A stretch of DNA of 64,000 nt. Source: Acidihalobacter aeolianus (GTDB lineage Bacteria; Pseudomonadota; Gammaproteobacteria; DSM-5130; Acidihalobacteraceae). Below are positions 20,760 through 43,047 of this stretch, piece by piece. Under the pieces are notes generated by a model. That model saw only the letters and a program-made list of their open reading frames with translations, searched no databases and was not told where the DNA came from. The stretch is from the NCBI RefSeq assembly GCF_001753165.1, contig NZ_CP017448.1, positions 186,001-250,000 on the forward strand. The letters are read 5' to 3'. Each line of letters starts with the position of its first letter. Within the stretch, counting starts at the first letter, position 1. Made by a program: the position numbers and the translations under genes.

Positions 20760-21527
20760 TCAGTCGCGGTAGATCATGCGGCGGGTCATGCCGCCGTCGA
20801 CGACGAAATTCTGGCCGGTGATGAAACCGGCCTCGGCGGACAGCAGAAAGGCGGCGAGCGAGGCCACGTCGGCGGGTACGCCGACCCGCCCGGCCGGGTG
20901 CTGGGCATGATCTTCGGGGCTGAGCGCCGGTGTTTTCGCGCGCGAGGGCTTGCGCCAGTCGCGCACCTCGATCCAGCCCGGCGAGATGCAGTTGACGCGG
21001 ATCTCGGGGCCGAGGCTGACGGCGAGTGCATGGGTCAGCGCGACCACGCCGCCCTTGGAGGCGGCGTAGGCATCGGTGTCCGGTTCGGACTGCAGCGCGC
21101 GGGTCGAGGCGATGTTGACCACCGCGCCGCGGGCGGTGCGCAGCGACGGCACGGCATGCTTGACGGTGAGGAAGTAGCCGGTCAGGTTGACCGCGATCCA
21201 GCGGTTCCAGGCGGCCAGTTCGAGATTTTCCACCGGGCCGCTTGCAGGGCCGGCGATGCCGGCGTTGTTGATCAGCGCATCGAGGCGGCCGTGCCGTCCG
21301 ATCACCGCGGCGATGGCGCGCGCCACGGCTTCCTCGTCGGCGGTATCCGCCGGCTCGAATTCCAGGTCGAAGCGCGCGCAGGCCGCACCGGCTTCCGCAT
21401 CGATGTCGAGCACGGCGACGCGATAGCCGTCGTCGTGCAGACGCCGGGCGATGCCGAGGCCGATACCCTGGGCGCCGCCGGTGACCAACGCTACGGGTGC
21501 GGGGTTTTCGTCAGTGGCGGGTTGCAA
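20760..21527 (-). CDS. SDR-family oxidoreductase
   Basis: The product is 255 aa. The Rossmann motif TGGAQGIG is near the N-terminus, NNAG is present, the catalytic Ser is in NIASTRALQ, and the YAASKGG (YxxxK) pair follows. The C-terminus has the usual RMIYRD end of classical short-chain dehydrogenases. It is likely NAD(P)-dependent; the ending and the WIEV segment after NCISPG do not reveal a substrate. The EamA transporter downstream may be its operon partner. Confidence 0.92.
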   Translation of the reverse strand: MQPATDENPAPVALVTGGAQGIGLGIARRLHDDGYRVAVLDIDAEAGAACARFDLEFEPADTADEEAVARAIAAVIGRHGRLDALINNAGIAGPASGPVENLELAAWNRWIAVNLTGYFLTVKHAVPSLRTARGAVVNIASTRALQSEPDTDAYAASKGGVVALTHALAVSLGPEIRVNCISPGWIEVRDWRKPSRAKTPALSPEDHAQHPAGRVGVPADVASLAAFLLSAEAGFITGQNFVVDGGMTRRMIYRD

Positions 21528-30605: not shown

Positions 30606-30677
30606 TATTCAATGATCCTGGGGTTCCAATAATGCTGGCGAATGACAGGCTCGGGACAGTCCGTCAGGGGGCAACTG

Positions 30678-31118
30678 ATGAACACACTAAAACTTCGGTG
30701 GCAGCGTCTTGCGGTAACGCTGCTGTTTGGTTTCATGCTCACCGCTGGGACGGCCGCTGCATCAAGTGGACCCGTCGACGTACACATGCTGATCATGGTC
30801 GACCGCACCTCTCCGCAAAGCGAGATGGTGGCGATGAATCTAATCCGCCACGTGATTCGTTTCCAGGGCATCGATCATGCACACCTGGATCTGTTGGCCA
30901 TCGGACCCGGCATGAAGATGCTGCTCAAGGGCACGCCCTATGCCGAGGATATCGAGAGCTTCACCGACTACGGGGTGAAGTTCGTGCTCTGCCGGCGCAA
31001 TCTCGAAGCGGCACATATTCCGTTTTCCCGTCGAGCCGACGATGTGGGTTTGGTGCCGGATGCGGTGCTGGAAATGCAAAAGCGCAAGAACGAAGGCTGG
31101 ATGGTCGTCTGGCCCTGA
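30678..31118 (+). CDS. Exported DsrE-family protein
   Basis: The product is 146 aa from the ATG at 30678 with a GGGG-type site; an in-frame ATG at 30642 is less likely. A signal peptide covers about residues 1-28 (LLFGFMLTAGTAAAS). The rest is DsrE/DsrF-like: VDVHMLIMVDRTSPQSEMVAMNLIRHVIRFQG and VKFVLCRRNLEA, with a single conserved Cys at the usual active-site position. DsrE proteins carry sulfane sulfur or act as sulfur relays; a periplasmic form is less common. The gene is divergent from the Cyc2-like gene. Confidence 0.82.
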   Translation: MNTLKLRWQRLAVTLLFGFMLTAGTAAASSGPVDVHMLIMVDRTSPQSEMVAMNLIRHVIRFQGIDHAHLDLLAIGPGMKMLLKGTPYAEDIESFTDYGVKFVLCRRNLEAAHIPFSRRADDVGLVPDAVLEMQKRKNEGWMVVWP

Positions 31119-31128
31119 TCTCGTCGGA

Positions 31129-31869
31129 CTAGCCGCGCGCGCGTCCGCCTAAGAGCAGCCGTAGGCGCGGCAGCATGAGTCGGGGATCGAGCAGCATCCG
31201 CGCCACGGCGAGCGTGATCTGCGTGGTGTCGTGGACAGCGCGATAGTGGCTGGGCCTGGCGGCCTGCGGATAGAGGCTGTCGATGGGGACGTAGCGCAGC
31301 GGATAGCCGAGATAGGCTGCCGCCACCAGCAGCTCGGTTTCGAGCACGAACCCCTCGGCGGATCTGCTCAGCGGAAAGCGGCCGTCGCGCAACAGCTCCG
31401 CAGGGTAGACGCGGAACCCCGACTGGCTGTCGCGGATGCGTCTGCCGGCGGCCAGAGAGATCCAAAAGTCGGCGAAGTGATTGGCCATGCGGCGCGCGGC
31501 GGGGGCCGCGCTACGCTTGTCTTGGCGTTCGCCGATGACGACCGCAGGCGGGTCGTCGGCTGCTGCGGCGAGCAGGCGCGGTATGTCCTCCGGCCGGTGC
31601 TGGCCGTCCGCATCCAGCGTGACGACATGGGTCGCGCCGAGCTCCAGGGCATGGCGAAAGCCGGTCGCGAGGGCTGCCGCCTTGCCGCGGTTGTGTTCGT
31701 GCCGCAGGACGCAGACGTTCTCCGGCATCGATCCCAGGCAGTCTCCCGTGCCGTCGGTGGAGCCGTCGTCCACCACGATGACTGCGTCCACCCAGGGCTG
31801 CGCGCCGGCAACGACGCCATGGAGCGTCGATGCCTCGTTATAGGCCGGGATCACCGCAACGGGCTTCAT
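31129..31869 (-). CDS. GT2-family glycosyltransferase of the aryl-polyene-type cluster
   Basis: The product is 246 aa. GT-A motifs: VAVIPAYNEASTL, VVDDGSTDGT, HNRGKAAALATGF and VVTLDADGQH (DxD-type metal site). It resembles the polyprenol/dolichol-phosphate sugar transferase branch and ends with a basic C-terminal tail. It is the last gene of the ten-gene operon and overlaps the ApeP-like gene by 4 bp. In aryl-polyene and xanthomonadin clusters a GT2 enzyme helps attach the polyene to its lipid carrier. Confidence 0.88.
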   Translation of the reverse strand: MKPVAVIPAYNEASTLHGVVAGAQPWVDAVIVVDDGSTDGTGDCLGSMPENVCVLRHEHNRGKAAALATGFRHALELGATHVVTLDADGQHRPEDIPRLLAAAADDPPAVVIGERQDKRSAAPAARRMANHFADFWISLAAGRRIRDSQSGFRVYPAELLRDGRFPLSRSAEGFVLETELLVAAAYLGYPLRYVPIDSLYPQAARPSHYRAVHDTTQITLAVARMLLDPRLMLPRLRLLLGGRARG

Positions 31870-32312
31870 GCCGGCGGGCTTCCGCCGAGCACGCTGAGTC
31901 GACCGTGCAACAGCTCGCGCCCGCCAGCGCCGACGCTGAAGCGGTAGATCACGCCCTCCCCGCTCGCGATCAGGCGCTCTGCCTCGATCACGAGTGTCTG
32001 CGCAAGCTCGTCAAGGCGTACAGCCGAGAAGACGACGTCGCGTACCGCGACCAGCCGGCCGGGGGTTGCGGCGGGCGTGTTCCGGCGGTGGCCCGTCAGC
32101 AGCGCGCCGTGCAGGGCCGCCGCCTGGGCGGCGTACTCGATGCCGTGTACCGCATGCAGCCGTCCTGCCCGACGCAGCGGATGCCGCGGATCGAGATGGG
32201 TGTTGCTGAGGCAGCGGATGCGCTTGTCGTCCCATTCGGCGACGCGCTCGATCAGGCACATGTCGCCGGCGTGCGGAATCAGCGCGCACAGCGCCTCCCG
32301 ATCTTTCAGCAT
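31866..32312 (-). CDS. ApeP-like 3-hydroxyacyl-ACP dehydratase (hotdog fold)
   Basis: The product is 148 aa. The N-terminal IPHAGDMCLIERVAEWDD (H-x-x-x-M and L motif) and the central HAVHGIEYAAQAAALHGAL are typical of the ApeP/FabA-Z-like dehydratases of aryl-polyene synthesis. The conserved His of PHAG and the GIEYAAQA helix are present. It would act on 3-hydroxyacyl-ACP with the ApeI-like partner encoded earlier in the operon. It overlaps the chain-length-factor gene by 7 bp. Confidence 0.86.
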   Translation of the reverse strand: MLKDREALCALIPHAGDMCLIERVAEWDDKRIRCLSNTHLDPRHPLRRAGRLHAVHGIEYAAQAAALHGALLTGHRRNTPAATPGRLVAVRDVVFSAVRLDELAQTLVIEAERLIASGEGVIYRFSVGAGGRELLHGRLSVLGGSPPA

Positions 32313-33109
32313 GGCTGCAGCGAGACCAGTAGATAGGTTTCGGCGGTCATCGGCAGCGCCGTCCGCCCGGCCTGCCTCGTCGCGAGCAAGGCGAGCAGCG
32401 GCAAGGCGGCCGCGGCGGGATTGTCCCGGTGCAGGGCTTCCAGGCCCGGGTCGGCGAACGGACGCGCATCGGCCGCATCGCTTCGGGGGCCGGCCAGCCT
32501 CAGCCGCGCCAAGCCGTCTGCGTCGGAATCGTCCGCCGCCAGCACGAGTGCGCAGGCGAACGGCTGGCGCATCGCGACGCAGGCGTCGAGGGGAAACGGC
32601 GGCGGGACTTCGTAGGCGACCAGCAGGACGGGGCCGCCCTCGCAGTGCAGCTGCGTCAGCGCCTCGGTCAGGCCGGCGGCGAAACTAAAGGTCTGCGCGG
32701 AGATGGCCGTGTAGGGTGCCCGCGCGCCCGTGGCGATCGACCAGTAGCCGGCCGGCGCGTTGTGCACGGAATTGTGGAAAACGGTGGGCGACAGCGCCGG
32801 TTCCGGGCGGGACAGGGTCTCGCATACCGCGTGCATGAGATGCAGGTCGCCGCTGGCGGAGGCGAAGACGCTGGCGGCGTGCACAGGATCGATACCCGCC
32901 ATGCGGACGGCCTCGTCCGCCACTGCCAATGCCAGGCGGGTCGAGGCGCCGGCGCGTCGGCGCTCGTTCGGCGGCAGGCGCACGGCGTTGGGCCTGGGAG
33001 GCTCCCCGGCGGCGTAGGCCGCGCGGCCGGAGAGGATCTCGCGCGCCGTGTCCCAGTCCGGCAGGCCGGGTGCGGCGATGCCGGCACCGAGGATGCGACA
33101 GGGCATCAT
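32306..33109 (-). CDS. Beta-ketoacyl synthase chain-length factor (KS-beta)
   Basis: The product is 267 aa, shorter than a full ketosynthase. The start codon overlaps the ketosynthase stop by 4 bp. It keeps the KS fold (TVFHNSVHNAPAGYWSIATG, then the helix region AISAQTFSFAAGLTEAL). A Gln, around residue 139, replaces the nucleophilic Cys, which is the mark of chain-length factors that pair with a catalytic ketosynthase. The partner is the gene just upstream. Together they should set the polyene length. Confidence 0.86.
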   Translation of the reverse strand: MMPCRILGAGIAAPGLPDWDTAREILSGRAAYAAGEPPRPNAVRLPPNERRRAGASTRLALAVADEAVRMAGIDPVHAASVFASASGDLHLMHAVCETLSRPEPALSPTVFHNSVHNAPAGYWSIATGARAPYTAISAQTFSFAAGLTEALTQLHCEGGPVLLVAYEVPPPFPLDACVAMRQPFACALVLAADDSDADGLARLRLAGPRSDAADARPFADPGLEALHRDNPAAAALPLLALLATRQAGRTALPMTAETYLLVSLQPC

Positions 33110-34287
33110 GCGGGATACCCGAGAACCAGGCTGGCGTTGCTGCCCCCGAAACCGAAGGCGTTGCTGACGACGCGCCGCAGGGGCGTTTCGCTGCCCGCGA
33201 TGCGCACGTCGGAGGCGAATGCAGGGTCGACCGAGGCGGTGTTCAGGCTGCCGGGAATCAGGCCGTGTTCTATGCACAGGGCGCCGATCAGGGCATTGGC
33301 GGCACCGGCGGCGCCCAGGGTGTGGCCGGTCCAGCCCTTCGTCGAGGCGCAGGGCACCGCATTGCCGAAGACTTCGGAGACGGCCCGATCTTCTGCCGTG
33401 TCGTTCGCGGGTGTGGCGGTGCCGTGCAGGTGAATGAAGTCGACGTCCGCGGCTTCCAGACCGGCGCGGTGTAGCGCGCTCCGCATGGCGAGGGCCGCGC
33501 CGGCTCCCGTGGGGTCGGGCGAGGACATGTGGTAGGCGTCGTTGCTTTCGCCGTAACCCAGCAGATGGATGCCCGCGCCGTCCGCAGATTCGAGCAGGGC
33601 GAAGGCGGCCGCCTCGCCGATGCTGATGCGGTCGCGCGTGGGATCGGCCGGCCGGCAGGGCCGCTCGGAGACGAGCTGCAGCGCGGCGAAGCCGTGCAGG
33701 GTCATGCGGCAGAGGCTGTCGACGCCGCCGACCACGGCCGCCGTGCACAGGCCTGCCTCGATGTGGCGCCAGGCGGTGGCGAAGGCCTTGGCGCTGGACG
33801 AGCAGGCGGTGGAAAGGGTCTGCGTGGGCCCGTTCAGACCGAGTCGGTCGCGCACGTAGGCGGCCAGCGAGAACAGGTCGCCGGTGTGCGCATAGTCGAA
33901 CCAGTCAGGCAGGGGCGCCTGGGCATCCTCGCGCGCGAGGTAGGCGAGTTCGGTCTGCTCCACGCCGGAGGTGCTGGTGCCCATGAACACGCCGATGTTG
34001 CCGGCGCCGTGACGTTCGCGAGCGCGTCGGCAATGATCGATGAAAGCGTCTGCGGCGAGGCCGATCTCAGCCAGGCGGTTGTTGCGGCAGTCGTAGGGCG
34101 CGAAGGCCCCGGTCAAGGGGGCGTCTTCCACGCCGTCGACGCGCCCGATCCAGGTGTTCGGGCCGCGCGGATCGAAGTCGTTGGGGCGCAGTCCGCCGCG
34201 CCGCGCGCGCAGGGCGTCGAGGGTGGCCTCGCGGCCGACGCCGAGGGCGCTGGTCAGGGTATAGGCCGTGATCTTCAGGGCGGGCAT
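33106..34287 (-). CDS. Beta-ketoacyl-ACP synthase II-type ketosynthase
   Basis: The product is 393 aa. The catalytic triad is complete: Cys162 in LSTACSSSAKAF, His288 in IHLHGTATPANDTAED and His322 in KGWTGHTLGAAG, followed by NAFGFGGSNASLVLG. It belongs to the FabF/ApeO type that condenses malonyl-ACP onto the growing polyene. It is followed directly by the chain-length factor gene. No acyltransferase domain for malonyl loading is present, so the housekeeping FabD is presumably used. Confidence 0.92.
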   Translation of the reverse strand: MPALKITAYTLTSALGVGREATLDALRARRGGLRPNDFDPRGPNTWIGRVDGVEDAPLTGAFAPYDCRNNRLAEIGLAADAFIDHCRRARERHGAGNIGVFMGTSTSGVEQTELAYLAREDAQAPLPDWFDYAHTGDLFSLAAYVRDRLGLNGPTQTLSTACSSSAKAFATAWRHIEAGLCTAAVVGGVDSLCRMTLHGFAALQLVSERPCRPADPTRDRISIGEAAAFALLESADGAGIHLLGYGESNDAYHMSSPDPTGAGAALAMRSALHRAGLEAADVDFIHLHGTATPANDTAEDRAVSEVFGNAVPCASTKGWTGHTLGAAGAANALIGALCIEHGLIPGSLNTASVDPAFASDVRIAGSETPLRRVVSNAFGFGGSNASLVLGYPA

Positions 34288-34315
34288 GTCAGGTCCAGCG
34301 GTGCGATTCCGGCGG

Positions 34316-36667
34316 TCAGGGCCGGCTCAGACCCGCGCGTTGCGCCAGCAGCATGGCCAGCGGATAGGCCGTGCCGACCCCGATGGCCGCGGTCAGACCC
34401 AGGGCGCGCAGGACGGGCAGCGGCGAAACGGCAAGGATAGCAAATACGCCGACGGTGGAAACGGCGCACAGCGTGAGGGCATGCAGGGTCCTGCGGCGCC
34501 CGGCGGGATCGCTTTCGGGGCGGGCAAAGAACAGCGCGTAGTCGATGCTGATGCCCGCCACCATGAGCAGGGCGACGAGATGGAACAGGGTGAGCCGTTC
34601 GCCCAGGGCGACGAGTGCCGCCACGTCGATGAGTTCCGCGAGGGCCAGCGGCACGAGGACGCGCGCCACTTCGCGCGGGCGCCGCAGGCCGGCGAACAGC
34701 ACCAGCAGGACCGCGGCGGCGACCGCGCCGAGACGACCCACGGTCTGTTCGCGAAAGTCGCGCATCAGCCGCGTCGATTCGTCGTGCATGTCGAGGTAGG
34801 TGGCCCCGGGCGTGGGGTGTGCCGCGAACCAGGCGGCAAGCGCCTGCGGCTCGCGCACGCCGATCAGCGGCACCAAGGCGTACCAGCGCCTGGCGTGCGC
34901 GTAGAGCAGATTGTCGATGCGCGCACCGAGCAGGGTGCCGCGCGCCTCATCCGGGGTTATGGGAGAAAGGTGGCGGGCCGCTTCGGCATCCCGCAGGAAG
35001 GGCGCGAACACGCCGGGCCGGAACGGCAGACCGTGCAGTGCCGTCTGCAGGCGTACTGCAAGTACCGGTGCCGGCGGGATGGCCTCCTGGCGCTGCCGCT
35101 GCACGGCGGCGTCCGGTAGATAGCGCGCGGCGAGTTCGTAACCGTGTAGCCAGCCTTTCGCGACCTGTGTGCGCAGCTCCGTGGCAACCCTCCGGCTGCG
35201 CGCCAGTGCCTGCTGCGCATTGTCGGCTTGAACCACCACCAGCTGGCCGACGTCGGGTGCGCCGAGATCGCTGCGCAGCTGCCGGTCGGTGGCCAGGCTG
35301 GCCGAACTGACCGGGCTGAGTGCGGCAAGGTTGTCCTGCCAGAAGGTATCGCGGTGCTGCCAGATCGCGGCCAGGGCGGTCGTGCCCAGCAGCGCGGCGG
35401 TGGCGATACGGATGCCGGGACGGGTGCGGCGTGCCGCTTCCGCCACGCGCATCAGCCGGTGCAGGCGTAGCCGGGGCGCATAGGCGGCCGGCATCAGGTC
35501 GGGCAGCACCCAGCGGGTGGCGCCCGCGGCCGCCAGCAGGCCTGCGATGGCGAATACTCCGAGTTGCATCAGGCCCGGAAAGCCGGTGCCGAGCAGGCCA
35601 ACATAACCGGCGGCGGTGGTGAGCACGCCGAGCCTGAGCGTGGGCCAGAGGTGCTGCAAACTGCGCCGCGCGCTGATGTCCCGCTCCAGGTGGCTGAACA
35701 GGTGCATGGGGTAGTCGACGGCCACGCCGAGCAGCGTGGAACCGAAGGCCAGGGTGATGCCCTGAACCGAGCCGAAGCCGAGGTTGACGGCCACGGTGCC
35801 GGCGAGCACGGCGCTGAGCAGGGGCAGCGCGGCGAGCAGCAGCAGGCGCACGGAGCGATAGGCGACCAGCAACAGCAGCGCGAGGGCGAGGCTGGCGGCG
35901 GTACTGAATGTCTGTGCATCGCGCTTGATGGTATTGCGCGAGTGCACGGCGATGACCGGCGAGCCGCTGAGCACGAGGCGCAGCCCCTGGTGCCCGGGCA
36001 GGGACCCGAAGCGATGACGCAGTGTGTCGACCGCGTGCTGCATGGCATCCAGGTCGAGGCCCGCTGCGCGCGTCTGCGCCAGCAGCAGGGCCCGCTGGCC
36101 GTCAGGCGAAACCCACACCCCGTCCTGTCGGGCAGGTGCGTGCGCCGGTTTCCAGGATTCCAGCATGGCGAGGTAACTGCCGGTGGGATCGGCCGCGAGA
36201 AAGCGCTGGCTGAGCAGTCCCAGGGGCGAATTCAGGGCGCGGAGCTGCCGTTCCAGGGCGGCGTGCAGCCCGGCTACCGTGAAGTCCGCCGCCTTGACCG
36301 CGGGGCTGAGCAGATAGCGCCAGGCAAACAGGCGCGGATCGTCGAGTGATTGCGGGTCGAAGTCTCCGTTGGCCACCCGCGTGAAAAGCCCGCTGGCCTG
36401 CAGGGCGGCGGCATAGCGGCGGCTAACCTCAGCCCTTTGCGCGGCGGTGCCGCCCGCGATCGCGATGAGCACCGTGCGGTTGGCCGGCGAATCCTCCATC
36501 TGGGTGAGCATGAGCTGCTGGGCCGCGCTGCGACCCGCCGGCATGAAACCGGCCAGGCTGGCGGCGAAGTGCGCCGAGTGGGCGAGATAGAGGCTGCCCG
36601 CCAGGCACAGGGCGAGCCAGAGAAGGGGCGCGAACCAGCGCCGCTCAGGACGCGGGCTTGCGTTCAT
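34316..36667 (-). CDS. MMPL/RND-family exporter of the aryl-polyene-type cluster
   Basis: The product is 783 aa with about twelve hydrophobic helices and two large periplasmic loops (about 35-270 and 420-610), the layout of MMPL transporters. Typical helix sequence is AFGSTLLGVAVDYPMHLFSHLERD and AGISIDYALFFARP, where the ASp in the IDYALFF/VDYPMHLF helices marks proton coupling. Exporters of this kind move aryl-polyene lipids toward the outer membrane. It overlaps the LolA-like gene by 23 bp. Confidence 0.9.
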   Translation of the reverse strand: MNASPRPERRWFAPLLWLALCLAGSLYLAHSAHFAASLAGFMPAGRSAAQQLMLTQMEDSPANRTVLIAIAGGTAAQRAEVSRRYAAALQASGLFTRVANGDFDPQSLDDPRLFAWRYLLSPAVKAADFTVAGLHAALERQLRALNSPLGLLSQRFLAADPTGSYLAMLESWKPAHAPARQDGVWVSPDGQRALLLAQTRAAGLDLDAMQHAVDTLRHRFGSLPGHQGLRLVLSGSPVIAVHSRNTIKRDAQTFSTAASLALALLLLVAYRSVRLLLLAALPLLSAVLAGTVAVNLGFGSVQGITLAFGSTLLGVAVDYPMHLFSHLERDISARRSLQHLWPTLRLGVLTTAAGYVGLLGTGFPGLMQLGVFAIAGLLAAAGATRWVLPDLMPAAYAPRLRLHRLMRVAEAARRTRPGIRIATAALLGTTALAAIWQHRDTFWQDNLAALSPVSSASLATDRQLRSDLGAPDVGQLVVVQADNAQQALARSRRVATELRTQVAKGWLHGYELAARYLPDAAVQRQRQEAIPPAPVLAVRLQTALHGLPFRPGVFAPFLRDAEAARHLSPITPDEARGTLLGARIDNLLYAHARRWYALVPLIGVREPQALAAWFAAHPTPGATYLDMHDESTRLMRDFREQTVGRLGAVAAAVLLVLFAGLRRPREVARVLVPLALAELIDVAALVALGERLTLFHLVALLMVAGISIDYALFFARPESDPAGRRRTLHALTLCAVSTVGVFAILAVSPLPVLRALGLTAAIGVGTAYPLAMLLAQRAGLSRP

Positions 36668-37274
36668 GCACCACGAGGCGGCTGAGCGTCAGGCGGCTGC
36701 GGTCGCCGCCGCTTTGCGCAACCTCGACGCGCCGGAGCCGGTTGCCGCTGCCGTAAAGTTCGATCTGCTCGATGGCCTGGTTCAGCGACGCCTGGAGCGG
36801 CAGCAGTCGCAGACGCCAGGCCGCGGCATCCCCCGAGAGCTCGGGCTTGAAATAGCGATGCAGTACCGCGGCATTGCCGGACAGGGTCGCGCGCAGGGCG
36901 GCGATCAGGGCGGCCAGCGGCGGGTAGTCGTCCAGCTGAACCCTGCGCGGCGGATCGCTGCCGAGAATCTCGGCGACGTTGCCCTGCACCACGTAGCCGC
37001 CGCCCTCGCCGGTCTTGGCGAGGTAGCCGGGCGCACGGTAGACGAGCCGCCCGTGGCTCACCAGCGGGACGTCGACGAAGCTCGAATGCCGCACCTCGGT
37101 GTAATCGGCGCTCGCGTCGGTGACGCGGGAGAAGCCGGCCAGCAGGTCGGTCAGGTTCCAGCCAGTTGCACCCGCAGGTTGGCACGCCAGCAAACCGATC
37201 AGGCCGGCGGCGAACGCCAGCACGGCCAGGACGTGTCGGCGCCCGCGCGCAGGCTCAGGATTGCCAGTAGTCAT
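36645..37274 (-). CDS. LolA-related outer-membrane lipid carrier protein
   Basis: The product is 209 aa. The N-terminal region is an uncleaved or cleavable signal (HVLAVLAFAAGLIGLLACQPAGA). The mature part resembles LolA-like half-barrel proteins: LTDLLAGFSRVTDASADYTEVR, then LVSHGRLVYRAPGYLAKT. It would shuttle a lipid product through the periplasm for the MMPL exporter that follows. LolA-like genes are a standard part of aryl-polyene clusters. It overlaps the flanking genes by 20 and 23 bp. Confidence 0.85.
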   Translation of the reverse strand: MTTGNPEPARGRRHVLAVLAFAAGLIGLLACQPAGATGWNLTDLLAGFSRVTDASADYTEVRHSSFVDVPLVSHGRLVYRAPGYLAKTGEGGGYVVQGNVAEILGSDPPRRVQLDDYPPLAALIAALRATLSGNAAVLHRYFKPELSGDAAAWRLRLLPLQASLNQAIEQIELYGSGNRLRRVEVAQSGGDRSRLTLSRLVVHERKPAS

Positions 37275-38145
37275 AGAAGTTGAACCAGTTGTAGGGCGCC
37301 AACCGGGTGTAGTGCTCCAGGCGGGCGGCGTAGCGTCGGGTCAGCTCAGTGGTGACCGCGTCGCGCTGCGCACGCGGCAGGTCGAGCGCCGGGGTCAGAA
37401 GCTCGAAGTGGATATCGTAACGCCGTCCGCCACGGTACAGCCCGAAGAAAAGCAGCACCGGCACGTGCATCGCCGCCGCGGTGAGCAGAGGGCCGCGCGG
37501 GAAGGCGGCGCGGCCGCCGAGAAAGTCGCAGGTCAGGATCTTGTCGCTCTCGGCCACGCGATCGCCGAGCATGCCGACCAGGTCGCCGGCCTCGAGACGC
37601 TCCTTGACGCGCAACAGGCTGTCGATGCCGCCGAGGGGGATCACGGTGTCGGCGACGGCCGGATTCAGTGCGGCCAGCAGGCGCGTCAGGGTGCCGTTGT
37701 GCTCGGGGTACATGAGCACGCGCAGCGGCAGCCCGAGGCGGTTGACGCCGAGTGCGCGCAGCACCTCGAAGCTGCCGAGGTGCGAACCCAGCAACAGGCC
37801 GCCCTGCCCGCTTTCCGCCTGCGCCTTGAGCAGCTCTTCGCCGTTTACGCGCACGTCCAGCGCCGAGTCGCGACCCGTGAGCAGGAACACGCGATCGAGG
37901 ATGGTGGCCGCGAAACAGTGCATGTGGCGCGCGACGTCGGCGAGGTTCGCGGGTCTGCCGAGCACCCGCGCGAGGTAGGCGCGCGACTGGCGCCGCGCCT
38001 CGCCGGCGCGCAGCAGGTAATAGGCGGTGATTGGAGGCAGCGCAAGCCGTGCGACACGACGCCCCATGCGTCGCGCCAGCCAGAGCACCAGCTGCATGGC
38101 CCAGCGGTTGCCGAACTCGCCCTGAGCGGTCCAGGCGCGGCTCAT
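37255..38145 (-). CDS. LpxL/HtrB-like lipid acyltransferase
   Basis: The product is 296 aa. The acyltransferase motif is SHLGSFEVLRALG (the H-x4-E type of LpxL-like enzymes) and ADLVGMLGDR follows, with FPRGPLLTAAAMHVPV near the end. An N-terminal membrane-associated helix is present. It should acylate the aryl-polyene glycolipid or its lipid anchor rather than lipid A, given its place in the operon. It overlaps the ApeI-like gene by 4 bp and the LolA-like gene by 20 bp. Confidence 0.88.
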   Translation of the reverse strand: MSRAWTAQGEFGNRWAMQLVLWLARRMGRRVARLALPPITAYYLLRAGEARRQSRAYLARVLGRPANLADVARHMHCFAATILDRVFLLTGRDSALDVRVNGEELLKAQAESGQGGLLLGSHLGSFEVLRALGVNRLGLPLRVLMYPEHNGTLTRLLAALNPAVADTVIPLGGIDSLLRVKERLEAGDLVGMLGDRVAESDKILTCDFLGGRAAFPRGPLLTAAAMHVPVLLFFGLYRGGRRYDIHFELLTPALDLPRAQRDAVTTELTRRYAARLEHYTRLAPYNWFNFYDYWQS

Positions 38146-38444
38146 GCGTCGTCGTCTGCGACGGCGAGACTGCCTTCGGCGACGAGCGTGTCTCCATGGC
38201 GTGCGGCAAAGCGCAGTTGACCGGTCGGCGTGCACTCGAACTCGATCCGGCACGCCTCGTCGGGTTTCAGGGGGGTGTGGAATTTGGCCGTGCGCACGCC
38301 GCTGATCCGAAGCTCGGGCCAGGCGGCGCTGGCGGCGGCGATCACCTCGTCGAGGATGACGACCCCGGGCACGATCGGTTCGCCGGGGAAATGTCCGGTC
38401 AGCGCCGGGTGGGATGGCGGAATGTTGAAGCCGGGCTGGTTCAC
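38142..38444 (-). CDS. ApeI-like dehydratase/thioesterase-like hotdog protein
   Basis: The product is 100 aa from the GTG at 38444, which overlaps the ligase TGA (GTGA arrangement); an upstream ATG-start reading of 141 aa would overlap the ligase gene deeply and adds unconserved sequence. The core HPALTGHFPGEPIVPGVVILDEVI contains the HF-PGxPIxPG motif of the ApeI/FabZ hotdog family. It would work with the ApeP-like protein to dehydrate 3-hydroxyacyl-ACP. Confidence 0.84.
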   Translation of the reverse strand: MNQPGFNIPPSHPALTGHFPGEPIVPGVVILDEVIAAASAAWPELRISGVRTAKFHTPLKPDEACRIEFECTPTGQLRFAARHGDTLVAEGSLAVADDDA

Positions 38445-39763
38445 GCGGACAGTCTGGCGTTGCCGATCAGATTGAGCAGGAGCTGGCGGGGCAGCTTGCC
38501 GGTGTCGGTCCGGGGCAGTGTGGCCAGCTTGACCAGCGGTCGGGGCAGGAACACCGGGTCCATGCACAGCGCAAGCTGACGGAGCAGTTCGGCCTCGTCG
38601 AGCGTGGGGGCGACTACCAGTGCGGCAAGTCGCTCGCGCTCGGGATCGGGCTGGACGAAGCAGCCGTCGACCACGCCGGGTATGGCGAGCAGTCGGCGGT
38701 TCAGTTCGCCCAGCGTGGTGCGCTTGCCGGCGATGTTGACGAGGTCGGCCTTGCGTCCGATCAGGTGGAAGCGCCCGCCCGGCGAGACTTCGAGGCGGTC
38801 GGTGATGGTCTGGGCTGCGGCGAGCTGCGGTCCCGTGATCAGCCAGTCGTCGTCGCGGCGCTCGAGCGCCATGCCGTCGTACAGCCGCCAGTTCGCGTCG
38901 CGCAGGGTTTCACGGCTGGCAACCGCGCCGGCCTCGGTAAAGCCGTAGATCTCGTGCAAGGGTGCGCCGAACGCAGCCTCGGACGCGGCGGCCAGTTCAG
39001 TATCCAGCGGCGCGGTGGCGCAGAGCACGAAAGCCGTTTCGGGCCAGGCGAGTCCGGCGCGGGTAAGCGCGCGAAGATGCACGGGGGTGGTGACCAGTAC
39101 CCTGGGTGCTGGCAGCTGCGCCAGCGCCCGGCGCAGATCCTCGGGGTAGAAGGGCTGGCCGGCGTGTACCGCGCTCGGTCCCAGCAGGGCGTAGAGCACG
39201 CTCGATTCCATGCCGTACATGTGCTGCGGCGGTACCGTGGCGAGCAGGTGATGCGTCGCGGCGTCGAGACCGAAGCGGCGCAGCGCGAGTTCGGTGCCGA
39301 GGCTCAGCTGTCCCCAGGTCTTGAGGTTGGGACTGGGTTTGCCCGTGCTGCCGGAGGTGAAGATCACGATGGCCGGCTGGGCGACATCGATTTGCGGTGC
39401 CGCGCCACCGTTCGTCGCGCCGTTCTTGAGCTGCAGACGGTGCATGGGACGGCGCACGCCATCCAGCGGCGCGTCGCACAGGCAGTAGGCGTCGTAGTCG
39501 TCGGCGGTCTCCTGTATCACCTGCGGCGCGCGGCTCGGCGGCAGCAGCGTGATCTGTCCGCGCAGCAGCGCCGCGGCGAAGGCGACCATGAAGTGGTAGC
39601 GGTCGAAACACAGGTTGACCACATGGCGGCCGTCGGGAAGGTTTTCGGCCAGCGCGCGTGCCTGGGCCAGGAAACGCCGGCGGGACACCGCCACGCCATC
39701 GCGCCAGGCGATCGAGCTGTCCGGGTCCCCGAGATGGAGCAGAGGGCGGGTTATGGGGGGCAT
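38441..39763 (-). CDS. AMP-dependent aryl/acyl-ACP ligase
   Basis: The product is 440 aa from the ATG at 39763, about 22 bp after the ACP stop. ANL-superfamily motifs: IVIFTSGSTGKPSPNLKTW (P-loop), EIYGFTEAGAVA, FHLIGRKADLVNIAGKRTTL (hinge) and the C-terminal Lys in TDTGKLPRQ. Aryl-polyene and xanthomonadin ligases of this type load the aromatic starter (for example 3- or 4-hydroxybenzoate) onto the ACP. The neighbouring ACP and the nearby chorismatase fit this role. Confidence 0.9.
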   Translation of the reverse strand: MPPITRPLLHLGDPDSSIAWRDGVAVSRRRFLAQARALAENLPDGRHVVNLCFDRYHFMVAFAAALLRGQITLLPPSRAPQVIQETADDYDAYCLCDAPLDGVRRPMHRLQLKNGATNGGAAPQIDVAQPAIVIFTSGSTGKPSPNLKTWGQLSLGTELALRRFGLDAATHHLLATVPPQHMYGMESSVLYALLGPSAVHAGQPFYPEDLRRALAQLPAPRVLVTTPVHLRALTRAGLAWPETAFVLCATAPLDTELAAASEAAFGAPLHEIYGFTEAGAVASRETLRDANWRLYDGMALERRDDDWLITGPQLAAAQTITDRLEVSPGGRFHLIGRKADLVNIAGKRTTLGELNRRLLAIPGVVDGCFVQPDPERERLAALVVAPTLDEAELLRQLALCMDPVFLPRPLVKLATLPRTDTGKLPRQLLLNLIGNARLSA

Positions 39764-39785
39764 GCGGGCTTCGCCGTCGGTTTGT

Positions 39786-40061
39786 TCAGTTGCCCGGCGA
39801 CTGCTGGCTACTGATGTGTGCAGCAAGGCTGCGCAGCGAGGCGAAGATGGCCGGAGTCTGGTTGTCGTCGGAGCGGATCTGCACGCCGTAGCGCTTGGAT
39901 ATCGCCAGGGCCAGTTCGAGGGCGTCAATCGAGTCGAGCCCCAGCCCTTCGCGAAACAGAGGGGCCTCCGGATCGATTTCGGTGACGCCGATCTCCTCCA
40001 GGTTGAGCGTGCTGATGATCAGCCCGGCCAGCTCCTGCTCGAGCTCCATCGCTTGGTCCAT
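39786..40061 (-). CDS. Acyl carrier protein, first gene of the aryl-polyene-type operon
   Basis: The product is 91 aa with GGGGGCAGG before the ATG. The phosphopantetheine site is Ser44 in GLGLDSIDALELA. The helices and acidic helix 2 are typical ACP, and the sequence LFREGLGLDSIDALELALAISKRYGV is like the ACPs of aryl-polyene clusters. Only one ACP is present, while the E. coli system has two. It would carry the growing polyene. Confidence 0.92.
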   Translation of the reverse strand: MDQAMELEQELAGLIISTLNLEEIGVTEIDPEAPLFREGLGLDSIDALELALAISKRYGVQIRSDDNQTPAIFASLRSLAAHISSQQSPGN

Positions 40062-40220
40062 CCTGCCCCCTGCTGTTATGACTCCCGCGCGCTCTTCCGG
40101 TGGGCCGAGGGAGTCTGAAATAACGGTATGCTATCTTACCAACGGGCCCGAAACGGCAAAAGGGTGCCCCATCCTCAAGCCGCTTGCTGCGGATTTTCAC
40201 AGGACCCGACGGACTTCCCA

Positions 40221-41090
40221 ATGAATGCTTGCCGCAGGATCGATCGGCACGGCGCGCGTGCGCGGCGGTCCCGCCGCATGCCGGGCCTGCTGCTGGCCGG
40301 CGGCATGCTGTCGTGGACCTCGGCCGCATCCGGCGAAATGCGTCCCCTGTGGGAGCTGGGTGCCGGTCTCGGCGTCGCATCCATCCCCGCCTACCGCGGC
40401 GCACGTGGCGCTGACCTGTACCTGCTGCCCCTGCCCTATCTCGTTTACCGCGGCCGATTCCTGCGTTCGGACAGCCAGGGCATCCGCGGCGTGTTCTATC
40501 GGAGCGAGCGTATCCAGCTGAATCTGAGTGGCTACGCCGGCCCACCGGTGCAGAGCGGACAGATCTCGGCGCGTGCCGGGATGCCGAATCTGAACTCGAG
40601 CTTCGAGATCGGTCCGCAGCTGCAGTTCAAGCTGATCGAACGACCGGGTTACTCGCTCGACCTGCGCTGGCCGGTGCGCGCCGCCTTCACGTTTTCGCTG
40701 CAGCCCATCGGCTGGACCAGTACGCCGCATCTGCAGCTCGACCTGCCGGATTTTCGCGGCAGCGGCTGGATGCTGGGCGCCTCGCTCGGCCCGGATTTCG
40801 CGGATCGTCGCTACCACGCCTATTTCTACGATGTGGCGCCCGCCTATGCGCGGCCGGGTCGCCCCGCCTACAGCGCATCGGGCGGTTACAGCGGAAGCAG
40901 CATCTACCTGACCGCCAGCCGGCGTTTCAGGCGCTTCTGGGTCGGTGCCTTCCTGCGCTACGATAATCTCGCCGGCGCGAGTTTCGTGCGCAGCCCGCTG
41001 GTCGAGACACAGCAGTATCTGGTGGCGGGATTCGGGGTCAGCTGGATCTTCGCCACCTCCTCGCGCATGGTCGAATCCGAGGAACCCTGA
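40221..41090 (+). CDS. MipA/OmpV-family outer-membrane protein
   Basis: The product is 289 aa. A signal peptide (about 1-45, [20 protein letters not shown]) precedes a beta-barrel of MipA/OmpV type: [34 protein letters not shown], and a final aromatic-rich strand. The family forms eight-stranded or larger outer-membrane barrels that interact with murein synthases. It is divergent from the aryl-polyene-type operon and its stop overlaps the mutM start by 1 bp (TGATG). Confidence 0.88.
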
Positions 41091-42042: not shown

Positions 42043-43047
42043 ATGAACACGGCCAAGGTACTCGCTCACTCCGGTCCCTTCGGCATGGGTTACGTGCCAC
42101 GCTCCCGGATCGCACAATTTTGCGATGACCCGCATACGCTCGCACTGATCGATTTCGCCGCTGACGGCGAGGCCGCCGGCGCGGCGGGTTTCGTCAGCCA
42201 TCTGCCGCAGCTCGACGGACCGCCGGTTTGCGAATACTGGCGCAGCGACGAGCCGGTCACGCGCTGGCAGGAAGGTGACTTCCACCTCGCGCGTACTTCG
42301 GAATTCATGTTCGCCCGTTTGTCGTTGCCCGATACGGCCGCCGCCGAACGGGATGCGCAGGTTGCCTACGCGGCTCTGTTGCGCATCCTGCGTGAAGGCG
42401 AATTTCCTCATCTGGTGCGGGTGTGGAACTACTTCCCGAGGATCAATGCGGAGGAGGACGGACGCGAGCGTTACCGTTCGTTCTGCGTCGGCCGCGCGGC
42501 GGCGCTCGAATCGCTCGACGCGATGGACGATGCGCGTCTTCCGGCGGCCAGCGCCCTGGGTGCCAGCGGCGGCGGGCTGCAGGTCTATGCCCTGGCCGCG
42601 CGCGAACCCGGCGTGCAGATCGAAAACCCGCGCCAGGTCAGCGCTTTCCGCTATCCCAATGATTACGGTCCGCGCAGTCCGTCGTTTTCACGCGCGACCC
42701 TGGTGCGCTGGCGCAACGGCACGCATTTCTACATCTCGGGCACGGCGAGCATCGTGGGGCATGCCTCGGTGCATCAAAGCCTGGAGGCTCAGCTCGGCGA
42801 GACGCTGGCAAATGTCGAGGCCGTGGTCGCGCAGGCGCATCGCGCCGAGGGGCTCGATATCAGCACGCCCGACGCGCTGAGCCTGCTCAAGGTCTACGTG
42901 CGCCGGGCCAGCGACGCCGGTACGGTGAGGGACTGGTTGCGCGCACGGCTCGGCTCGGCCGTGCCGATGGCCGTGCTACAGGCCGATGTGTGCCGTGCGG
43001 AACTGCTGGTGGAGATCGAGGGCGCCTATTGCGGCGGCGCGGGCTGA
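42043..43047 (+). CDS. Chorismatase of FkbO/Hyg5/XanB2 type
   Basis: The product is 334 aa from the ATG at 42043. The conserved chorismatase core is recognised: VRVWNYFPRIN, RYRSFCVGRAAALES, ALGASGGGLQVYALAA, IENPRQVSAFRYP, YGPRSPSFSRATLV and FYISGTASIVGH, with LLKVYVRR and LLVEIEG at the end. Family members cleave chorismate to 3- or 4-hydroxybenzoate or to dihydroxycyclohexadiene carboxylate. XanB2 supplies the xanthomonadin starter. Location within 2 kb of the start of the aryl-polyene-type operon suggests the same role here. It is followed within 4 bp by the convergent ferredoxin gene. Confidence 0.9.
   Translation: MNTAKVLAHSGPFGMGYVPRSRIAQFCDDPHTLALIDFAADGEAAGAAGFVSHLPQLDGPPVCEYWRSDEPVTRWQEGDFHLARTSEFMFARLSLPDTAAAERDAQVAYAALLRILREGEFPHLVRVWNYFPRINAEEDGRERYRSFCVGRAAALESLDAMDDARLPAASALGASGGGLQVYALAAREPGVQIENPRQVSAFRYPNDYGPRSPSFSRATLVRWRNGTHFYISGTASIVGHASVHQSLEAQLGETLANVEAVVAQAHRAEGLDISTPDALSLLKVYVRRASDAGTVRDWLRARLGSAVPMAVLQADVCRAELLVEIEGAYCGGAG

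Follow-up and report, generated by a model that had tools for sequence, protein, structure and literature searches.

A 64-kb stretch of the Acidihalobacter aeolianus genome (positions 186001–250000 of contig 1; this whole stretch is called the window) contained ten co-directional genes on the minus strand (31129–40061), which resembled the aryl-polyene and xanthomonadin operons of other bacteria and included no gene for a ketoreductase (KR). The genes were packed as compactly as a sequence-only reading of the same DNA had described, with seven junctions overlapping by 4–23 bp and two gaps of 22 and 28 bp. The first gene (39786–40061) encoded an acyl carrier protein (ACP), which scored over the cut-off of NF006617/PRK09184 and carried Ser44 in a GLDS motif. 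It was followed by genes for an ApeH/ArcT-like AMP-binding starter ligase (38441–39763; ATG 39763 was chosen as the start of an open reading frame (ORF) open to 39928), an ApeI-like hotdog dehydratase (38142–38444; the probable start was GTG 38444, overlapping the ligase stop by 4 bp, in an ORF open to 38567), an LpxL-type lipid acyltransferase (37255–38145; PF03279), a LolA-like periplasmic carrier (36645–37274; PF19574) and an MMPL/RND exporter (34316–36667; assigned by family profile scans). Then came an ApeO-type ketosynthase (KS) with Cys162-His288-His322 (33106–34287; NF006618, 487 bits against a cut-off of 407), a chain-length factor (CLF) of the truncated ApeC/ORF16 type (32306–33109, starting at ATG 33109 or ATG 33106; PF13723), an ApeP-like hotdog dehydratase (31866–32312) and a GT2 glycosyltransferase (31129–31869), the last two overlapping by 4 bp (ATGA).

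Family scans upheld all the functions that had been named earlier. Pfam assigned nine of the ten genes, the exception being that for ApeP, whose own sequence gave no Pfam or NCBIfam match. A family profile of 16 ApeP members matched chain B of 6QSR (E 1.9e-12), which we take to be the ApeI-ApeP pair, and PF22817 was found in five of the 16 members, the window's own not among them. The ApeI-like protein was over the cut-off of PF07977 and below that of PF22818, and matched chain A of 6QSR (E 1.2e-4), with FabZ structures scoring slightly better. The Cys-His-His of the KS was kept in 84 of 84 aligned rows, His14/Glu59/Gln63 of ApeP in 81 of 81, and His59 of ApeI (numbered on the 141-aa ORF) was His in 52 of 55. 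Residues 139–140 of the window CLF were Gln-Thr where most relatives had Tyr/Phe/His-Asp (Asp in 76 of 82 aligned rows); Gln139 was considered as a counterpart of the essential Q166 of Lysobacter and was rejected, Gln being found there in just 2 of the 82 rows.

The operon was compared with 83 related loci, i.e. the best 80 of 152 confirmed with a KS profile in named genomes plus L041–L043, from genomes G001–G003; these are near relatives of the window KS and do not represent aryl-polyene clusters at large. Five genomes of the order were also compared: the source genome G000 (contigs of 3,363,634 and 162,484 bases) and G001–G003, all cluster-bearing and of one family (G003, a single contig of 3,448,835 bases, belongs to a sister genus), and G004, which has no cluster. 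A FabG-like gene was present in 73 of the 78 informative loci (L046, L050, L058, L110 and L117 were too short to tell), and in 72 it neighboured apeP, at a median distance of 42 bases. The order KS-CLF-ApeP-KR-GT2 occurred in L045, L047, L060, L080, L089 and L109. No ketoreductase gene was found in the window operon or in the 20-kb loci of G001–G003, and in G000–G003 the ApeP gene overlapped the GT2 gene directly by the same 4 bases, with no KR between. The informative loci devoid of a FabG-like gene were L041, L042 and L043, which are all three other clusters of the family, together with L055 and L070.

A profile (A3) built from ten cluster KRs was run against G000–G004 in six frames and against control genomes. 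At the sensitivity used, no cluster-type KR was detected in G000–G003; the best match in each of G000–G004 was the FabG encoded beside FabF, at 198–207 bits (203 in the cluster-free G004). Among the controls, L045 and L047 had cluster KRs of 437 bits each, high by construction because both belong to A3; that of L086, outside A3, gave 381 bits, and the FabGs gave 207–214. In the genome of L070, a gammaproteobacterial metagenome-assembled genome (MAG), a KR (L161, 277 bits; Arg and Leu occupy the two key sites considered below) was detected on another contig, indicating that a moved KR would be seen by the profile. The genome bin of L055, an Acidisphaera MAG, had no A3 match above 200 bits.

A tree was made of the cluster KRs from 61 of the 73 loci (L061, L063, L066, L077, L087, L089, L096, L098, L099, L104, L111 and L115 were removed by an ORF-length filter) and 16 of the 17 PF13561 matches of G000, all short-chain dehydrogenases/reductases (SDRs), the KR domain of a type I polyketide synthase (PKS) being omitted. 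The 61 cluster KRs formed one clade (support 100/99) with the FabG of G000 as nearest outsider, and none of the 16 SDRs joined it, several of their rows being long-branched (program warning). The closest solved structure was AbApeQ (7CAW) for the cluster KR of L045 and 1I01, which we take to be E. coli FabG, for the FabG of G000. Judged by these searches and this tree, the cluster KR of Acidihalobacter has been lost and not relocated. The sequence-only reading had placed no ketoreductase in the operon or the window; this held for the operon, but the window contained an SDR of the FabG superfamily (20760–21527, −), though not a cluster-type KR (PRK05717-like, 318 bits against a cut-off of 384 for that model). 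In both G001 and G002, matches to the KR profile with similar scores lay ~11 kb away from the cluster.

All ten genes were intact in G000–G002 and all had counterparts in G003, the ligase in two tandem copies. For nine of them (ApeI was excluded) dN/dS in two genome pairs was 0.07–0.49, compared with 0.12–0.21 for a neighbouring Fpg-like gene, these values being rough because synonymous sites were near saturation in places. Since the dehydratases need a reduced substrate and have kept their conserved residues, and the nine genes had dN/dS below 0.5, ketoreduction should still be needed; as no dedicated KR was found in the genome, something other than it must perform this essential step. On a KS tree of the loci (without the truncated L046, L050, L058, L110 and L117), the label “no KR” took four changes, of which at least three were forced by well-supported branches. 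Constraining the four KSs of the Acidihalobacter family as one clade was not rejected (p-AU 0.638; its likelihood exceeded that of the free tree by 3.6), and a single KR loss within the family is thus possible; the L055 row implied at least one further loss. The cluster of G003 (L043 4198–12142; G003:C1:450491–453094) also had genes for another KS, another ACP, an ATPase and a permease of the ABC type, a further protein with no Pfam match (KS-like by eye) and, between CLF and ApeP, a UDP-glucose-dehydrogenase-like gene (by eye); its two ligase copies lay in one long frame.

Two parts of the locus had not been noticed in the sequence-only reading. A MipA (MltA-interacting) outer-membrane protein resembling ArcC was encoded divergently from the operon (40128–41090, +, ORF limits), 66 bases from the ACP start, and a chorismatase of the XanB2/FkbO/Hyg5 family at 42043–43047 (+; PF21168, E 6.6e-38; FkbO 4BPS, E 2.3e-48), the Fpg-like gene (named by eye) lying between them. 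A XanB2-family chorismatase was found in all five genomes of the order; it was near the operon in G000–G002 and inside the cluster, beside MipA and ApeI, in G003. It is the presumed source of a 3- or 4-hydroxybenzoate starter, its sequence not telling which of the two. Because chorismatase and MipA genes lie near the operon, and the same pair is adjacent in the arcuflavin locus of Azoarcus, the starter is probably a hydroxybenzoate derived from chorismate and the xanthomonadin/arcuflavin type is the appropriate reference. UbiC (PF04345) had no match in G000, so the chorismatase may also supply ubiquinone; XanB2 has been reported to feed ubiquinone as well (PMC3949708). G004 had a chorismatase (48% identical), but neither a ligase nor an operon-type ACP was matched there and no KS was over the ApeO-type cut-off, as would fit a second role of the chorismatase such as ubiquinone supply.

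The locus thus had an ApeO-type KS with CLF, ApeI and ApeP, a starter ligase with a dedicated ACP, a XanB2-type chorismatase and genes for lipid attachment and transport; a dedicated ApeQ-type ketoreductase was missing. Family scans, synteny and the genome-wide search agreed with the earlier proposal of an aryl-polyene/xanthomonadin-type operon without KR, and by its gene content the operon is a xanthomonadin/arcuflavin-type aryl-polyene cluster.

The sequence-only reading had also listed a second ACP, an extra KS and a phosphopantetheinyl transferase (PPTase) of E. coli-type clusters as missing. In G000, PF00109 had five matches and PF00550 three, which were accounted for by FabB, FabF and AcpP (the last two identified by their position in the fab operon), a type I PKS and the operon KS, CLF and ACP; the second ACP and the initiating ketosynthase ApeR of the E. 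coli type were not found among them. Such genes are not expected in the xanthomonadin type: Xanthomonas xanthomonadin clusters are described as having no second ACP, and even the cluster of E. coli CFT073 as having no dedicated PPTase (PMC8253772). Compared with the xanthomonadin-type reference, in which one ACP and one KS paired with a CLF are the norm, the loss of the KR is the sole unusual absence. A PPTase elsewhere in the genome, for which a search had been suggested, was found as one PF01648 match (L016, G000:C1:2069836–2070183), which is probably AcpS, judging by its size and by a recO-like ORF (by eye) next to it. This was the sole such match in a genome that also encodes a type I PKS, so three kinds of carrier may depend on the same enzyme. 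The PKS had 2418 aa and the domains KS-AT-DH-ER-KR-ACP (L018 8668–15924). A second aryl-polyene cluster, proposed earlier as a refuting find, was rejected, just one KS in G000 being over the ApeO-type cut-off.

A few other features lay around the operon. Its G+C content was 70%, that of the window 65% and the published genome value 62.2%. Convergent with it was a gene (30642–31118, +) for a small protein that begins like a signal sequence and matched no family; it was conserved in G001 and G002 and was DsrE-like by eye. A promoter and terminator scan gave nothing above chance, and Rfam and tRNA scans of the window were empty.

In the pathway that these genes predict, XanB2 would convert chorismate into hydroxybenzoate, which the ligase would load onto the ACP, and KS-CLF would elongate it by malonyl units. 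Reduction of every 3-keto group, most likely by FabG of the fatty-acid operon, would be followed by dehydration by the ApeI/ApeP hotdog pair. The acyltransferase and GT2 enzyme would attach the polyene to a lipid, and MMPL, LolA and MipA would carry the product to the outer membrane. FabG is the most likely reductase because dehydration needs a 3-hydroxy substrate and FabG, which works on ACP-bound substrates, is the closest enzyme that the organism has. Of the earlier suggestion that reduction was borrowed from FabG or from a distant gene, FabG is the most likely though unproved answer, a distant cluster-type KR being excluded at the sensitivity used; of the FabG/ApeQ-like genes to be sought elsewhere, a FabG beside FabF was present and an ApeQ-type gene was not found.

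Several observations weigh against FabG. Lysobacter possesses its own FabG. Deletion of the cluster KR gave white Lysobacter mutants (PMC3691225). When A. baumannii FabG replaced ApeQ in vitro, almost no aryl polyene was formed and FabG did not bind the cluster ACP, Leu185, Arg148 and Arg174 of ApeQ being contributing residues (PMC8041823). The proposed role of FabG thus runs counter to a published in vitro test, made with proteins of another species. The Arg148 site was Arg/Lys and the Leu185 site Ile/Val in 61 of 61 cluster KRs; the FabGs of G000–G003 had Pro and Phe, respectively, and five other FabGs examined had Ala or Pro and Phe. A counterpart of Arg174 was common to cluster KRs and FabGs. 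Adaptation of FabG towards ApeQ was looked for and not seen; the FabG of G008, whose genome has its own cluster KR, also had Pro at the Arg site. On the side of the carrier, likeness of the cluster ACP to AcpP ranked 2 (L055), 8 (L042), 12 (L041) and 19 (window) among 49, all above the median of KR clusters, with L070, whose KR is elsewhere in the genome, at 32 and the truncated L117 at 49. The window ACP exceeded the median only slightly (69 against 66), which also weighs against FabG. The ACPs of KR-less clusters may lean weakly towards a FabG partner, a tendency confounded by relatedness, three of the four being close relatives. Judged from these residues and ranks, neither FabG nor the ACP shows clear adaptation, though the cluster has been retained.

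On balance, a xanthomonadin/arcuflavin-type cluster that has lost its dedicated KR and most likely has ketoreduction done by the housekeeping FabG is favoured, by a modest preference. Its strongest competitor, which we consider unlikely yet worth keeping in view, is that a reductase not of the ApeQ type, either a different SDR or a protein of unrelated fold, took over the step. The failure of FabG in vitro (PMC8041823) would be explained in this way, and G000 has 16 PF13561 matches besides FabG (one of them the PKS domain); the SDR at 20760–21527 and the similarly scoring matches in G001 and G002 would be candidates, and in G002 another SDR reached 168 bits. However, with the KR profile FabG alone among the SDRs of G000 exceeded 155 bits, the SDR in the window is PRK05717-like and adjoined by a glutamine-amidotransferase-like ORF (by eye), and a cluster-linked SDR was not found in G003.

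That a gene present in 73 of the 78 informative relatives has been lost here, and that the window CLF has Thr where Asp occupies 76 of 82 rows, could also mean that the cluster is decaying or that its product is unreduced or short rather than a full polyene. This is improbable: the ten genes are intact in G001 and G002 and represented in G003, dN/dS for nine of them was 0.07–0.49, set against 0.12–0.21 for the Fpg-like neighbour, and the KS and dehydratase residues are kept. Least credible of all is a cluster-type KR at another genomic site or hidden by a gap in the assembly. The L070 genome offers a precedent, and the chromosome of V6 has one gap and that of V8 four, but FabG topped the six-frame search in each of G000–G003, the tree set the cluster KRs apart from all 16 SDRs of G000, and the same gene falling into gaps of four assemblies would be a strange coincidence.

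According to published work, FabG is unable to stand in for ApeQ, and the present cluster puts this claim to a natural test. As four genomes of one family have retained a near-complete cluster with no dedicated reductase, either the claim does not hold everywhere or the step is done by an unknown enzyme. Tentatively, an aryl polyene might here be made with no ApeQ-type reductase, by a new kind of ketoreductase or by a FabG that uses contacts other than those of ApeQ and is shared by fatty-acid and pigment synthesis. The cluster also predicts a cell-envelope pigment, yellow and xanthomonadin-like, in iron-oxidising, salt-tolerant acidophiles, none having been reported in the literature searched. 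That search found nothing joining Acidihalobacter with aryl polyenes; papers mentioning Acidihalobacter, genome and pigment together, judged by title or abstract start, included none on such a pigment, and the words “polyene” and “pigment” were absent from the main text of a paper on oxidative stress in Acidihalobacter (word search of PMC7760498).

Among known systems, the cluster of E. coli CFT073 shares ApeC-, H-, I-, L-, M-, O- and P-like genes, acyltransferase and glycosyltransferase functions and one ACP with the window operon; it differs in having 18 genes, including ApeQ as KR, ApeR, two ACPs, a methyltransferase and a thioesterase, and is described as having no chorismatase, the starter coming from UbiC (PMC8253772). 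The xanthomonadin clusters of Lysobacter enzymogenes and Xanthomonas share a single KS with an ORF16-type CLF, an ACP, two dehydratases, a LolA-like carrier, an acyltransferase, XanB2 and, beside KS/CLF, an ORF resembling dolichyl-phosphate-mannose synthase; they differ in having a KR (ORF13), deletion of which abolishes the pigment, and a halogenase, present in Xanthomonas, is described as absent in Lysobacter (PMC3691225). The arcuflavin (arc) system of Azoarcus sp. BH72 differs in its KR (arcH), halogenase and methyltransferase, in its division into two unlinked loci and in the presence of a dialkylresorcinol cluster; it shares the KS, CLF, two dehydratases, AMP ligase, ACP, exporter, LolA, acyltransferase and glycosyltransferase, as well as MipA (arcC) and a XanB2-type chorismatase (arcB), the latter two being mutually adjacent in the arc locus (PMC3949708).

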